Below, in pieces: positions 3,795-25,582 of a DNA stretch of 25,697 bases. The DNA is from a virus. Within the stretch, counting starts at the first letter, position 1, and the number at the start of each line of letters is the position of its first letter. The position numbers were made by a program, and so were the translations under genes. The stretch lies in the IMG/VR virus record IMGVR_UViG_3300017963_000703, positions 1-25,697 of that record. The stretch is one strand, 5' to 3'. Below the pieces are notes generated by a model. The model worked only from the letters and a program-made list of their open reading frames with translations. It was not told where the DNA came from and searched no databases.

Positions 3795-5395
3795 TGCCAG
3801 AAACAGTAGACTTTATACTAGAGAACTACAACTCTGCTACATCAGAGAAAGATAAATACACTCACATTATGCGGGAGGCTGGGAAGTACGCCTGGCCTGC
3901 TGCCCGTGAGATGTACAGGTCTAGAGAGACGTCTGAGGGGCAAGAGTATTCAATTGACATCTTTGACTCAACTGCCATTGATGCGTCATTTAGGTTGTCT
4001 GCAAATATCTTCTCACATCTAATGCCAGTTGGCACAAAGTGGTTTGAGTTCAAAGCATCAGATTATCAAGACAATCAAGAGTCTGCCGTAACTGAATGGC
4101 TATCAAAGGCCACGTCTGTTACCCAAGAAGAAATGACTAGATCTAACTTCATGAGAGAGATGTTCTCTGCTATTAGGTCAATGATTGTATTTGGTACTGG
4201 TATCATCTCTGTAGAGAAAGACTCAAAGACTAACGAGCTCTCATATAGATCATATCACACTGGTGACATTGCATTTCTTGAGAACTCCAAAGGCGACATT
4301 GACACAGTGTTCCGTGACATCTACTACACGGCTCGTCAGGCCGTTCAGGAGTTCGATAGAGAGAGTTTGCCAGCAGAGATAGTAAAGGCCGCAGAAAACC
4401 CCACAGAGGCTCAGAACAAGTTTAAGTTCATCCACTGTGTTTACCCTAACTCAGACTTCACAAAGAAGAAAATAACATCCAAGAAGTTCAAGTCTGCGTT
4501 CGTATACGAAGATAAACGAGTGATTGTTAAAGAGGGTAAGTTTGACTCTAACCCTTACCTTGTAATGAGATTCACTAAGGCTCCTGGTGAGCTTTGGGGT
4601 AGGGGTCCGGTAATTGAACTTCTACCTGAGATTCGCATGTTGAACCAGATGAGGTTCGACTTTATTGAATCAGCAGACCTTGCTAATAATCCTCCTATGA
4701 TTGCTGAGGATGATGGAGTAATAGGCCAGCCTGTCACAGAGCCAAAGGGTATGATTTACATACGTGCTGGCGCGAGTATACCTGTTCCTTGGAATACTGG
4801 AGCAAACCTACCTCTTACCAATGAGGTGATAATCAACCAGCAACAGATCGTCAAAGATGGCATGTTGTTAAACATATTCCAGACCCTAGAAGACGTAAGG
4901 AATATATCAAGTGCAACAGAGTCTCAAATTCGTAAACAAGAAGGATTGGCTTTAGTTGGTGCGGTAGTAGGTGCAGTTCAGAAGGACGCACTTGACCCGC
5001 TCATCTCACGTTCACTTGACCTCATACCACAAACCAAGCTCCCAGATGCACCGAAAGAATTTGACTTTGATATAATCTACCAAGGCCGCCTATCAATGGC
5101 AATGAGTACCTTACAGGCCGATGCAATCGTTGTATGGCTTGCACAGTGGGCTCCTTATGCCGAACTAGGTGTACTTGAAAACATAGATATGGACCATGCT
5201 TCAAGGATAAGTGCGCTGGCCTCTGGTGTCCCTGCTGAAGTCCTAACAGACGCAGACGCAGTGAAACAACAGAGAGAGCAGATTAAGCAGCAACAGCAAC
5301 AGGCAATGCAACTACAGAATGCAGAAGCAGGGTCTAAGGCAGTCAAGAATTTAAGTGGAAAGGTGGACGAGTCTAGTCCGTTAGCACAGATATGA
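3794..5395 (+). CDS. Portal (head-to-tail connecting) protein
   Basis: Twelve-subunit ring at the capsid vertex through which DNA enters and leaves. Its 533 residues match the length of T7 gp8-type connectors (about 536). Residues 54-86 (IDIFDSTAIDASFRLSAN, then IFSHLMPVGTKWFEF) are the hallmark N-terminal block of the Head-tail_con family. The central region has the expected FTKAPGELWGRGP and LNQMRFDFIESADLANNPPM segments (about residues 258-300), and the C-terminus is the usual glutamine-rich helix (about 491-507). The start overlaps the previous stop and the end overlaps the next start (ATGA), so the three genes are translationally coupled. Confidence 0.93.
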   Translation: MPETVDFILENYNSATSEKDKYTHIMREAGKYAWPAAREMYRSRETSEGQEYSIDIFDSTAIDASFRLSANIFSHLMPVGTKWFEFKASDYQDNQESAVTEWLSKATSVTQEEMTRSNFMREMFSAIRSMIVFGTGIISVEKDSKTNELSYRSYHTGDIAFLENSKGDIDTVFRDIYYTARQAVQEFDRESLPAEIVKAAENPTEAQNKFKFIHCVYPNSDFTKKKITSKKFKSAFVYEDKRVIVKEGKFDSNPYLVMRFTKAPGELWGRGPVIELLPEIRMLNQMRFDFIESADLANNPPMIAEDDGVIGQPVTEPKGMIYIRAGASIPVPWNTGANLPLTNEVIINQQQIVKDGMLLNIFQTLEDVRNISSATESQIRKQEGLALVGAVVGAVQKDALDPLISRSLDLIPQTKLPDAPKEFDFDIIYQGRLSMAMSTLQADAIVVWLAQWAPYAELGVLENIDMDHASRISALASGVPAEVLTDADAVKQQREQIKQQQQQAMQLQNAEAGSKAVKNLSGKVDESSPLAQI

Positions 5396-5634
5396 CCGAA
5401 GAACAAGTAAAACAAAAGTCTTACGAAGAGATTCAAGAGAAACTAAGACAAGCATACGCTCAGGTAGCCAAAACAAAAGCAGGTAAGATTATCATGGAGG
5501 ACCTTGAGAAAATATGCGGAGCAAACAGAACAAGCGTTGACTTCAAGGAATGGTCAACGAACCAAGTATTCTACCATGAAGGCATGAGGAATGTTTGGTT
5601 ATATATTAAAGAAAAATCGAAAGGGATAAAATGA
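5392..5634 (+). CDS. Bbp19-like small structural protein
   Basis: An 80-residue helical protein whose ATG overlaps the portal stop by four bases and whose own stop overlaps the scaffold start. The pattern QVAKTKAGKIIMEDLEKICG followed by a polar stretch and YHEGMRNVWLYI is like the Bbp19 family, named from Bordetella phage BPP-1, which has a G-x-x-(V/I)-L/M-x-D-L core and an EGxRxVxxxI end. That family sits between portal and scaffold/capsid genes in related phages. Its exact role in the head is not known to me. There is no clear ribosome binding site of its own, in keeping with coupling. Confidence 0.75.
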   Translation: MTEEQVKQKSYEEIQEKLRQAYAQVAKTKAGKIIMEDLEKICGANRTSVDFKEWSTNQVFYHEGMRNVWLYIKEKSKGIK

Positions 5635-6422
5635 GTGAAGGAATGATACCAGAAGGTACGACAGATTCAAGTTGGATTGGAAGCGACGGTTCATTTAGCG
5701 ACCTGTCAACTGCACCAGAATCAATCAAAACTCTAGCTGAGAATAAAGGCTTTAAGAGTGTAGAGGACATTGCTGGGGCGTACACCAACCTAGAAAGCAT
5801 GAAGGGTGAGTTCTCTAATCCAGACGCCCTTAAGCTCCCAGAGACACTATCTGAGGACCATGTTTCGCAGATTTACGGCAAGCTTGGTGTGCCAGACAGT
5901 GTTGATGGCTATTCGTATAAGCCAGCTGATGGAGTAGATGTGGACACCGGGCTACTTGAACAATTCAAAGGTTTTGCGTCTGAGACAAAAATGACACAAG
6001 ACCAGTTCAATCAGGCTATCGAGTTCTGGAATGGCATTCAGTCTTCAAGCAAAGAATCTTACGACACAGAACTGTCTGAGCTTATCGAGAAAGGCAATGC
6101 AGGACTTAAAGATTCATGGGCAGATAGCTATGACGATAACATGTCTAAGGCAGATGCATTTGCAGAGCAGACAGGCCTTGACAAACTGTTTCAGAACTAC
6201 GGCATTGACCAGTTCCCAGATGTAAAACAACAGTTATATGAACTGTCAAAAATTACAGATGAAAGCTCGCTGCCGAACAACAAACCAGCAACAGAAAAAT
6301 CATCTGAAGAAAAGATAAACGAACTCCTAAATAGCGAAGCTATGCTAGACAGATTGCATCCTGATCACAATGCAGTCTACCAAGAATACATGAAGCTATT
6401 GAGAGATAAACGTGCGGGATAA
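5631..6422 (+). CDS. Scaffolding (capsid assembly) protein
   Basis: A 263-residue acidic protein placed directly before the capsid gene, as scaffolds are in T7-like phages. It has FKSVEDIAGAYTNLES (about 41-56), a block common in phage scaffolds, then LGVPDSVDGYSYKP (about 85-98), then a long helical region beginning MTQDQFNQAIEFWNG, and a charged C-terminal helix that probably touches the shell. It would guide prohead formation and leave before packaging. An AAGGG site precedes the ATG, which overlaps the previous stop. No protease motif was seen. Confidence 0.82.
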   Translation: MSEGMIPEGTTDSSWIGSDGSFSDLSTAPESIKTLAENKGFKSVEDIAGAYTNLESMKGEFSNPDALKLPETLSEDHVSQIYGKLGVPDSVDGYSYKPADGVDVDTGLLEQFKGFASETKMTQDQFNQAIEFWNGIQSSSKESYDTELSELIEKGNAGLKDSWADSYDDNMSKADAFAEQTGLDKLFQNYGIDQFPDVKQQLYELSKITDESSLPNNKPATEKSSEEKINELLNSEAMLDRLHPDHNAVYQEYMKLLRDKRAG

Positions 6423-6540
6423 CCTTATGGCCCTGCAAGATAGTGGTAGCCCACTCGCTGAGGAGCGTAAACCAGCCAAGGCCCGTTAGGACAACCGAGG
6501 CGATTTATTGTTAATTTAATTTTATTGAAAGGGTCCTAAG
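6423..6540 (+). ncRNA. Candidate structured leader RNA before the capsid gene
   Basis: This is a 118-base gap between scaffold and major capsid. It begins at the base after the scaffold stop and can fold compactly. An outer stem pairs CCTT(6423-6426) and GGC(6429-6431) with GCC(6475-6477) and AAGG(6478-6481). Two adjacent hairpins sit inside: AGTGG/CCACT (6442-6446 with 6451-6455, loop TAGC) and CGCT/AGCG (6456-6459 with 6464-6467, loop GAGG). An unpaired purine-rich stretch and TAAACCA lie between the stems. An alternative outer stem is GGCC/GGCC (6429-6432 with 6480-6483). A U-rich stretch (6504-6527) and an AAAGGG ribosome binding site (6528-6533) follow. Possible roles are mRNA processing or stability, or boosted capsid translation. 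The structure was drawn by eye. Confidence 0.5.
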
Positions 6541-7506
6541 ATGACCGAAAGAAATTCAAACACCAATGCCAATACTGGTTATTGGGAAGAAGCATTCTAT
6601 AATGCTTACATGCCCGGCATGAAAGCCGTGCTACAGGAAAAAGTGGACGCATATGCTGGTTCAGTAATGGTAGACGTCCTTGAAGGTGAATCAAAAGCTT
6701 ATGACTTCGTTGGTGAACTAAACCTCGTCAAGAAGAACACTCGCTTTGAAGACCTTCCACTAGAAGAGGGTGTACACAACAGACGTTGGATGTCACCTGA
6801 GTTCTACAGAAAACGTATCTTTGTTGATGACGAAGACCAGATTGCTCTCTTGACTGACCCAACATCGCCTTATATTCAGGCGTTTGCTAAGGGTGTTATT
6901 CGCATTAAGAATGACGTAATCTACAATGCGTTCAACGCAAATGTTCGTGGTGGCGACCAGCCTGGCGATGACACTTACATCCTCTCTAACACAGCCTTTA
7001 CTGGTCGTGATGGTGCTGGACGTACAATCGTCCACGATGCTAAATCTGACTTCAGTGCAGGCGGCACATCAACTGGTTTGACTATTGAAAAGCTCATCCT
7101 TGCTCGTCAGGGCTTGATTGAACTTTACAATGACCCTAACCAAATCTTCAACCTTGTTGTAGGTCCACAGCAGATGTCTGACCTCCTACGTGAAGCTGAA
7201 ACACAGAGTATTGACACTAATATCGTTCGGGCACTTGTTGCTGGTACTGTCAGTGAATACATGGGCTTTAGATTTATCATCGACCACAATGTCGTAACTG
7301 GCTCAAGCAATGACGTTGACGAAGATACAGACATCGCTCCATGTTACGCATGGGCTAAAGAGGGAATGCTCTTTGCTCAGAATAAGTCTCCTCAGTTCAA
7401 GGTGGACTGGCATGTTGAGAAGCAGGTGTGGCAGATTTCCGCAAGGGCTGGCATGAATGCAATCCGCATGGATGAAGACTGTGTAATGAAAATTGAATGT
7501 GCATAA
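6541..7506 (+). CDS. Major capsid protein
   Basis: A 321-residue shell protein, the size of Bbp17-type HK97-fold capsid proteins. The N-terminus (TGYWEEAFYNAYMPGMK) and the block LPLEEGVHNRRWMSPEFYRK (about 77-96) are typical of the podovirus capsid family. IRIKNDVIYNAF (about 121-132) and the LARQGLIELYNDPN stretch (about 188-201) fit the spine helix and A-domain. The C-terminus ends in DWHVEKQVWQISARAG followed by a short strand. Position between scaffold and the cement-like protein, a strong AAAGGG site and a U-rich leader agree with high expression. There is no prohead protease gene beside it and no obvious N-terminal delta domain. Confidence 0.92.
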   Translation: MTERNSNTNANTGYWEEAFYNAYMPGMKAVLQEKVDAYAGSVMVDVLEGESKAYDFVGELNLVKKNTRFEDLPLEEGVHNRRWMSPEFYRKRIFVDDEDQIALLTDPTSPYIQAFAKGVIRIKNDVIYNAFNANVRGGDQPGDDTYILSNTAFTGRDGAGRTIVHDAKSDFSAGGTSTGLTIEKLILARQGLIELYNDPNQIFNLVVGPQQMSDLLREAETQSIDTNIVRALVAGTVSEYMGFRFIIDHNVVTGSSNDVDEDTDIAPCYAWAKEGMLFAQNKSPQFKVDWHVEKQVWQISARAGMNAIRMDEDCVMKIECA

Positions 7507-24083: not shown

Positions 24084-24320
24084 TTACTCTGTTTTAATTT
24101 TACCATAGGGAGTTAAGACCTCTACGTCCTGTGGCACTCCCTTGCCTTTATCTATAGTCAGTCCATCCCATTTCAATTTATCAAGGTCAACCTCCGTAAA
24201 CAGGAAGTTGGCCTTTTTTTCTTGCCTATATTCAACCCCAGCGATCTTTAAAGTGGAGTTGCTTGTTACTTGTGTGCAGCTGGTTAGAAAAAGTATACAG
24301 GTTAGTATTACTGCCTTCAT
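24084..24320 (-). CDS. Small phage lipoprotein
   Basis: A 78-residue protein with a lipoprotein signal: MKAVILTCILFLTSC, lipobox LTSC, with cysteine 15 as the modified residue, leaving about 64 residues. The mature part (STLKIAGVEYRQEKKANFLF and on) is charged with a few strands. It is not proline-rich like Rz1 outer-membrane spanins, so a spanin role is uncertain; an exclusion or envelope-stress lipoprotein is equally possible. AGGAG (plus 24325-24329, minus strand) with five bases of spacing fixes the start. It is the last gene of the minus-strand module, three bases from the terminator. Confidence 0.68.
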   Translation of the reverse strand: MKAVILTCILFLTSCTQVTSNSTLKIAGVEYRQEKKANFLFTEVDLDKLKWDGLTIDKGKGVPQDVEVLTPYGKIKTE

Positions 24321-24328
24321 TTTGTCTC

Positions 24329-24550
24329 CTATTCTCTATGGTCTTTGATGTTACTTAATATATCTCTAGCACTCTCTACAACTTCCATTGGGTCTTTGCC
24401 TTGAGGCCGATGCTTTGCAAACATCCTTAAGGCATTGCATAAATCCCAGACCTCATTGAGCGTATCATTAGCCTGAAGTGCATTCATTGCATCCTCATGT
24501 GTATCGAACCTTACTGTTACTCTTTTGAATATTCTTTGTAGCCAGTTCAT
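24329..24550 (-). CDS. Small conserved-type phage protein
   Basis: A 73-residue protein with a basic N-terminus (MNWLQRIFKRVTVRF), then a helical part TLNEVWDLCNALRMFAKH and a second helix VVESARDILSNI. The pattern of 'alwel...LR...K' followed by a charged helix is one I associate with short phage early proteins of unknown function. GGAAGGG lies seven bases before the ATG, and the start overlaps the stop of the gene before it (TAATG). The function is unknown. Confidence 0.6.
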   Translation of the reverse strand: MNWLQRIFKRVTVRFDTHEDAMNALQANDTLNEVWDLCNALRMFAKHRPQGKDPMEVVESARDILSNIKDHRE

Positions 24551-24774
24551 TATATATCCCTTCCTGCCACCCAGTCCTCTAGGTATTCAATCTTATTCTC
24601 TGAATCTAAAACCTCTGCTTCTAGTTCAGCCACCCTCGCCTCAGCCACCTTAGCCCTTTTCCTATACCTAATAACATCACAGGCTAACTCCTCAATCATG
24701 CCCTCGTTACAGGATATACAGAGGCCAGTGTTGGTTACGGCTTTGTCTTGTTTGCATTCATTGCATAGTCTCAT
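24550..24774 (-). CDS. Zinc-ribbon plus coiled-coil protein
   Basis: A 74-residue protein with cysteines 4, 7, 19 and 22 (MRLCNECKQDK ... GLCISCN), a compact zinc ribbon, followed by a coiled coil from about 38 to 70 (RKRAKVAEARVAELEAEVLD). Possibly a small regulator or a partner of the replication proteins; there is no direct evidence. GGAG lies before the start, which overlaps the HNH gene stop (ATGA). Both genes are coupled within the minus-strand operon. Confidence 0.65.
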   Translation of the reverse strand: MRLCNECKQDKAVTNTGLCISCNEGMIEELACDVIRYRKRAKVAEARVAELEAEVLDSENKIEYLEDWVAGRDI

Positions 24775-25211
24775 GTCTTCTCCATCAATTTAACCAGCCT
24801 TTTACCTTGCGAATGAGACAGTCTGCTTGGGTCTACCTCATATTCAATGCATAATCTTACTAGCTTATCCTGCACGTCAAGGAAGTCCTGTTCCTTCCAC
24901 GTCCCTAGAGGCTTGGGCTTAGAATAGATAAACTCATACCGATCTGGGAATGTCTCACAGAACCACTTCTGCAACTTAGCTCCATTATGCCATTCCCTGT
25001 GACAGCTTGAGCATAGGGTGATGCCATTGTCCAGCTCCCATCTGAGGTGATTCAACGTCCTGTATCTGATGTGATGCCACTCCATGACCCCAACCGGACC
25101 CTTACAGTGTTCATACTGACAGCACCACTCATCCCTGGTCTTGACCAAGAGGCGGGCAAGGGAATCGAGCCACACCTTAAATGACTTTGCTTTGAACTTT
25201 TTCTTAGCCAT
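24771..25211 (-). CDS. HNH endonuclease-like protein (NinG/Rap type)
   Basis: A 146-residue protein with a full HNH core: C31-x4-C36, the HH pair at 46-47 (MEWHHIRYR), N62 (LRWELDNG), C67-x2-C70 and H71/H75 (LCSSCHREWHN). The basic start MAKKKFKAKSFKVW and the LLVKTRDEWCCQYEHC lead are like phage NinG-type nucleases, which act on branched DNA in recombination. The C-terminal 60 residues are helical and charged. A free-standing homing nuclease is an alternative, but the gene sits neatly in an operon. AAAGGAG lies six bases before the ATG on the minus strand. Confidence 0.78.
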   Translation of the reverse strand: MAKKKFKAKSFKVWLDSLARLLVKTRDEWCCQYEHCKGPVGVMEWHHIRYRTLNHLRWELDNGITLCSSCHREWHNGAKLQKWFCETFPDRYEFIYSKPKPLGTWKEQDFLDVQDKLVRLCIEYEVDPSRLSHSQGKRLVKLMEKT

Positions 25212-25243
25212 ATCTTTCTCCTTTCTATCACTTAATGTTAGTG

Positions 25244-25582
25244 CTATAGTAGCTCTGGGTTCTGATGTATATTGCCGATGACTTCACATTCATTCCAATA
25301 GCCACGGGTTGGCTCTCTAGGGTCAATCGTTATCAAACAGTTCTGTATGTCGACTGAATCACCTTCGTCATACCATGCCTTAACCACATCACCCTCATAT
25401 ATCTCAACCCCATTCTTGTCCTTGAGGCCAGTGTATTGCATAATGGGAGATTCTTTGAAATCTTCATCAGTTATTGTATAGCCGCCACCTGACAATTCCC
25501 ATGTCGGCGTTTCATGTAAAGTGAACGGCCATGACATCAGATTAGTCTCTTTGTCCCATGCCCTAAACTTTATCTCTCTCAT
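25244..25582 (-). CDS. YopX-domain protein
   Basis: A 112-residue protein that matches the YopX family closely: MREIKFRAWDKETNLMSWPF at the start, MQYTGLKDKNGVEIYEGDVV (about 49-68) in the middle, and NECEVIGNIHQNPELL at the end. YopX proteins are common in phages and prophages; their biochemical role is not established. AGGAG (minus strand, plus 25589-25593) precedes the ATG, which starts one base after the stop of the upstream helicase gene. Confidence 0.85.
   Translation of the reverse strand: MREIKFRAWDKETNLMSWPFTLHETPTWELSGGGYTITDEDFKESPIMQYTGLKDKNGVEIYEGDVVKAWYDEGDSVDIQNCLITIDPREPTRGYWNECEVIGNIHQNPELL

Follow-up and report, generated by a model that had tools for sequence, protein, structure and literature searches.

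In translational riboswitches and ribosomal-protein leaders, a folded leader lies directly upstream of the regulated gene and an alternative pairing hides the Shine-Dalgarno (SD) sequence. Among phages, the coat-protein operators of MS2-type RNA phages are hairpins with a single bulged A near the coat/replicase start site, and the RNase III sites of T7-type phages are hairpins with asymmetric internal loops between late genes. In the literature covered by one open library, no account came up of a conserved RNA with a regulatory role ahead of the capsid genes of dsDNA phages.

The window, that is, the whole stretch of DNA analyzed here, is a 25.7-kb record of a podovirus-type phage. Its operon carries terminase, portal, a Bbp19-like protein, a scaffold/protease-type gene (5631-6422), the major capsid gene (6541..7506, plus strand; PF19821 Phage_capsid_2, phrog_3437), which is the presumed target of the element described below, and tail genes. 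As the initial annotation had pointed out, the operon neighbours mostly overlap or abut, and a gap of 118 bases (6423-6540) separates the scaffold and capsid genes. It had seen no promoter there, and our search for sigma-70-like promoters found none for the gap region either. A search for nucleotide similarity in phages found none. Folded alone, the gap has no stability beyond that of shuffled sequences (z -0.5), and comparative evidence was therefore needed. Elsewhere in the window, short minus-strand ORFs are clustered at 24084-25582, one of which (24771-25211, minus strand, 146 aa) has by eye the look of an HNH-type protein. The small Bbp19-like protein (PF25181) is encoded at 5392-5634, between portal and scaffold, and at the same position in relatives; by eye, such proteins occur in phages carrying the RNA and also in Piluca and vB_EcoM_APEC, which have no leader gap and where the protein has a longer N terminus.

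Relatives were fetched via the capsid protein from viral contigs and phage records, and the leaders of the close ones display an obvious common pattern. In a sequence-only MAFFT alignment of 21 leaders, standard pairs occupy 90.0% of the pair cells, against 36-42% when the partners are slid by 1-3 columns, with 76 cells changed on both sides (8-20 with slid partners) and a covariation score of 0.464 (0.094-0.125 with slid partners), the scored structure having been named after inspection of the same sequences. The 40-sequence alignment A4, which was fitted to the model and is biased toward it, gave 89.4% of paired cells, a covariation score of 0.578 and 222 both-side changes distributed over 21 of 24 pairs; such column counts are non-independent events. 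The covariation in relatives that the initial annotation proposed to look for is thus present, with compensating changes above the slid and shuffled controls, and the gap does not vary freely beside conserved genes. This comparison of sequences strongly supports a real, conserved folded RNA in the gap region.

The P1 hairpin (6413..6437, plus strand) pairs 6413-6418 with 6432-6437 and 6423-6424 with 6429-6430, leaving a loop at 6425-6428. It contains an A6419.C6431 wobble and a UAA bulge (6420-6422, plus strand) that is also the scaffold stop codon, both assigned from the motif descriptor, which matches the window as UGCGGG-AUAA-CC-UUAU-GG-C-CCUGCA; the P1 columns covary in relatives. P2 (AGUGG-UAGC-CCACU, 6442..6455, plus strand) is identified by covariation, being paired in 100% of the cells of the 21 leaders and changed on both sides in 4 of its 5 pairs. 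A pseudoknot (6456..6467, plus strand) connects the P3 loop with the joint that follows P2 through C6456-G6467, which is C-G in 19 of the 21 leaders and U-A in 2, and G6457-C6466, which is G-C in 21/21; among 40 leaders, the combination is CG/CG in 32/40 and UG/CA in three. The window has a degenerate P3, a helix that covaries in relatives. In P4 (6475..6501, plus strand), 6475-6476 pair with 6500-6501 and, beyond an internal loop, 6480-6481 with 6495-6496; the inner part has a C6482.A6491 wobble, a CAA bulge (6492-6494), pairs between 6483-6484 and 6489-6490, and a loop at 6485-6488. The P4 pairs were mapped on alignment A3 and their columns covary.

The three stems drawn by the initial annotation can all form in the window sequence, with different outcomes in relatives. 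Its hairpin at 6442-6455 is the conserved helix P2. Its second hairpin (6456-6467) survives in its two outer pairs, which show compensating changes as the pseudoknot, and not as the hairpin that was drawn. The proposed outer stem (6423-6431 with 6475-6481) has to be abandoned, since 54.6% of its cells are paired in relatives, the same level as after shuffling (mean 54.1).

By covariance-model match, the conserved structured element in the capsid-gene leader extends over 6412..6506 (plus strand). Its 5' boundary falls within the last scaffold codons, upstream of the reported gap. The idea of a structured RNA at this place is strongly supported by covariation; its proposed boundaries have to be moved. 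The model R3, built from 17 relatives with the window and the P1 pairs left out, recovers the window element at exactly 6412-6506 (E = 2.6e-6) and also the leader L042, whose capsid is just 29% identical. R1 and R2, both trained with the window, match it at E = 8.5e-12 and E = 7.3e-13, all E-values being rough because of a short calibration, and the element is the sole model match within the 25.7-kb record. Rfam 15 gave no credible match to the window at E<=10, none in 10 relatives at E<=1, and none reaching the gathering score over the whole window. A hammerhead ribozyme was considered for the string CUGAGGAGCGUAAA and rejected, as the similarity is only loose, the string is not kept in relatives and no Rfam ribozyme matches.

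P1 and P4 share one motif, in which a wobble (A.C or G.U) adjoins a YAA bulge of 3 nt. The bulge is on the 5' strand in P1 and on the 3' strand in P4, so the same bulged helix occurs twice, in opposite orientation to the loop. At the wobble columns of the 21-leader alignment (10/26 in P1 and 88/105 in P4), 4 and 10 leaders have G.U/U.G and the others mostly A.C, an isosteric exchange; the P1 of the window is shifted by one column in this alignment and its wobble was read from the descriptor match. Among 40 leaders, the P1 wobble is A.C in 30 and G.U in 6, and the P4 wobble A.C in 25 and G.U in 13. A strict wobble+YAR descriptor finds 70 sites in 9.6 kb from 62 leaders, against 106 sites in 681 kb elsewhere, meaning 7.3 versus 0.156 per kb, a 47-fold excess, for a descriptor that, like its controls, was devised after the motif had been seen in these leaders. 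From seven altered control motifs, four have no leader match, two have 1 and 2, and wobble+YTR, which corresponds to a UUA-bulge variant, has 6 (5.5-fold). A role of the motif elsewhere in the genomes was discarded, as background matches equal those of the control motifs and R2 locates essentially one site per record. Mimicry of a ribosomal-protein site in rRNA was also considered. The descriptor has matches in E. coli rRNA, the one rRNA covered; among those judged none was convincing, and the two most closely inspected conflict with the rRNA pairing.

As an explanation for the conservation of P1, the stop codon was rejected: several leaders have a CAA bulge, and in L002 P1 is outside the upstream ORF. 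Short-form leaders (L025-L030) keep P1 and P4 and are devoid of P2, P3 and the pseudoknot. This, together with the occurrence of both bulge orientations, makes the bulged helix look like the recognized part. Extra P1-type hairpins with an A.C wobble and a CAA bulge were observed in L005 (at about -168 from the capsid start) and upstream of P1 in L073, L075 and L078, giving three motif copies per leader. In the leader of Yersinia phage YeP5 (L092), a P4-type hairpin seen by eye (GAG-C-CGG-GAAA-CCG-A-UAC-CUC), with a C.A wobble and a UAC bulge, could be a variant outside the strict descriptor.

The relatives of the window's capsid (PF19821/phrog_3437) include that of Pelagibacter phage HTVC010P, whose capsid leader is a marginal R2 match (0.06). 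Outside its training set, R2 finds leaders at E = 3e-8 to 2e-4, all before capsid genes (L034, L036, L038, L058, L059, L069 and the cultured Methylophilales phage MEP301). In all, dozens of related phages carry the element ahead of their capsid gene. In 27 whole records, 15 were matched, each time at the capsid leader, and 12 had no match; the additional matches were one weak hit (E = 0.34) and an incomplete second copy located where a contig ends. The latter is on the minus strand at positions 5-57 of the contig with L018 (G002), as expected if the ends are redundant. Most sequences are unannotated metagenomic contigs picked via the capsid protein, and the link with capsid genes is thus partly built in. 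This bias is lessened by the whole-record searches and by an unbiased scan of viral contigs for the P4 pattern, whose ten matches all score as the element, the downstream gene having been checked in some of them. In L034, L036, L037, L038 and L040, the capsid genes have 447-485 codons, compared with 321 in the window; in L037 and L040, the two scanned, the best phrog_3437 match is in the C-terminal part of the capsid.

By descriptor only, the motif is also found in further phages, among them Vibrio phage K300, Alteromonas phage ZP6 and Baldr. In the T7-like pelagiphages (HTVC019P, HTVC011P and relatives), the capsid gene is preceded by a hairpin of the P4 type, which is all that these leaders have in common with the window element. 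In non-redundant T7-like capsid leaders, the motif occurs in 24/33, versus 1-2/33 for five controls and 5/33 for wobble+RAR, and the inner stems differ yet stay paired (CUGA/UCAG, CUGU/ACAG, CAGU/ACUG, CACU/AGUG). R2 gave no match in the genomes of HTVC019P and HTVC011P, and the extension to T7-like phages therefore relies on descriptor matches. The capsids of these phages are Gp10A-like (PF21703); their relationship to PF19821 is distant, and they match that family weakly, though above the cutoff. Further conserved hairpins lie upstream of the P4-type one in the T7-like leaders L099-L178 and L179-L258, such as CACC-AUCUCU...AGAGA-GGUG. Conversely, Piluca and vB_EcoM_APEC have PF19821 capsids without a leader gap, which indicates that the element is regulatory rather than structural.

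Upstream of the capsid AUG (6541), the AGGG of the SD region and its spacer occupy 6530..6539 (plus strand), as read from the sequence. UUAGGAC at 6486..6492 (plus strand) is complementary to GUCCUAA at 6533-6539, and GGCCCU in a P1 strand (6429-6434, plus strand) is an alternative partner of AGGGUCC at 6530-6536. In folding predictions for the full leader, the SD of the window has a pairing value of 0.92. The antisense pairing of the window alone is moderate, with a P1-side duplex of -15.5 kcal/mol (duplexfold), rank 15/64 among swapped start sites. In its clade, the P4 hairpin is antisense to the U-rich tract and the SD, and elsewhere P1 or P4 strands take this part. Over 64 leaders, the duplex of each leader with its own SD averages -15.8 kcal/mol versus -12.4 after permutation (0/20000); the values are -20.6 versus -15.4 kcal/mol in the clade of the window (0/5000) and -16.1 versus -13.3 kcal/mol in clade II (1/5000). 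The signal is weak in a mixed clade (71/5000), and the permutations gave none in T7-like leaders, in clade IV or in the clade of short forms; since the leaders of one clade are relatives of each other, none of these counts is a strict probability. Attaching the native downstream region brings a mean gain of 11.4 kcal/mol, against about 5 for swapped ones, with a mean SD pairing of 0.87; the own gain of the window is only 3.0 kcal/mol. In clades I and II, the computed ground state is the SD-paired form, from energies that leave out proteins, ribosomes and transcription kinetics. Pairing beyond swapped controls, as expected for SD sequestering, was found for the clade of the window as a group and for clade II. 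A universal SD switch was rejected because the signal is clade-restricted, and for the same reason SD-antisense pairing cannot be the primary conserved function.

The initial annotation had suggested that the RNA raises translation or processes the message, and the data are compatible with this proposal. The best functional evidence, the antisense pairing in the clade of the window, points to translational control. We suggest, with somewhat more confidence than doubt, that the element acts in cis as a leader RNA and controls the expression of the major capsid gene through a factor-dependent switch, and it probably sets the amount of capsid protein made. The bulged helices would be recognized in trans by a putative factor present in infected cells, most likely a protein that binds RNA; it could come from the host or be encoded by the phage, the capsid and scaffold proteins being examples of the latter. 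We infer two translational states in the clades with antisense pairing. The start site would be open if the conserved hairpins are the first to fold while the mRNA is being made, or if the factor holds them; otherwise, the leader would refold onto the SD and capsid translation would shut down. In the clades without such pairing, the motif may affect translation or mRNA stability solely by binding the factor. A protein is favored as the factor since the small repeated bulged helix, in either orientation, is constant, whereas the loops, P2, P3 and the pseudoknot are not always kept. Given the distant relationship between PF19821 and PF21703, a capsid protein binding to the leader of its own gene is a candidate beside a host factor.

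Other explanations have to be weighed against this switch. The bulged hairpins could be sites of protein binding or processing that stabilize or mature the capsid mRNA, by blocking decay or by setting its 5' end, and the SD complementarity would then be secondary and clade-specific. The motif is indeed conserved where SD pairing is not, and the capsid gene is normally very highly expressed. However, plain stability needs no SD complementarity, which in two clades goes far beyond the swapped controls, and the hairpins, with a length of about 6-10 pairs in the sequence, are short, hairpins of this size being poor RNase III substrates; we regard this reading as unlikely. Alternatively, free capsid or scaffold protein may bind the hairpins and repress its own translation until assembly uses it up. 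Such an autogenous operator would agree with an element tied to PF19821 and, by descriptor, to the distantly related PF21703 capsid genes, and with the regulatory character suggested by the PF19821 phages without a leader gap. The binding is nevertheless putative, and given the SD-paired ground state in clades I and II, it would there open the start site instead of closing it, which leaves this operator rather improbable.

A small-ligand riboswitch whose pocket includes the wobble and the YAA bulges could account for the pseudoknot and the compact multi-hairpin fold in the clade of the window, but neither short forms devoid of P2, P3 and pseudoknot nor T7-like leaders with just a P4-type hairpin fit it, and a metabolite signal is hard to motivate for a capsid gene; we consider it very unlikely. 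As for functionless stems formed by chance, for which the unremarkable fold of the gap alone would be expected, the covariation counts already refute them, as do the motif enrichment and the independent model recovery, and we give this explanation practically no weight.

Returning to the factor-dependent leader, a broader reading is that wobble + YAA, present in 1-3 copies, is a new RNA recognition module, read by one conserved protein, that sets capsid output across PF19821 and PF21703 podoviruses; we find this plausible at slightly below even chances. With the same reserve, it would take in cultured phages of Pelagibacter, an abundant marine bacterium, and the reader protein would come from host or phage. 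The capsid is the most abundant structural protein and its control is central to phage assembly. The motif precedes the capsid genes of cultured phages (HTVC019P, HTVC011P, K300 and ZP6 by descriptor; MEP301 by model and HTVC010P marginally), which makes it testable at the bench. The bulged hairpins offer a concrete RNA bait for seeking the binding protein, and the covariance model can be used in the annotation of marine viromes.

With translational riboswitches and ribosomal-protein leaders, the element has in common the position and the alternative pairing described above, but it differs in its capsid target, in having no Rfam match and no known ligand, in its repeated wobble+YAA core and in an SD pairing limited to some clades. 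It resembles the MS2-type operators as a bulged hairpin near a phage start site that is plausibly read by a protein; unlike them, it has a 3-nt YAA bulge beside a wobble, usually in at least 2 copies and in either orientation, and belongs to dsDNA phages. As in the T7-type RNase III sites, hairpins with asymmetric internal loops stand between phage genes, although here the stems are far shorter and there is conservation of a specific wobble+YAA sequence.
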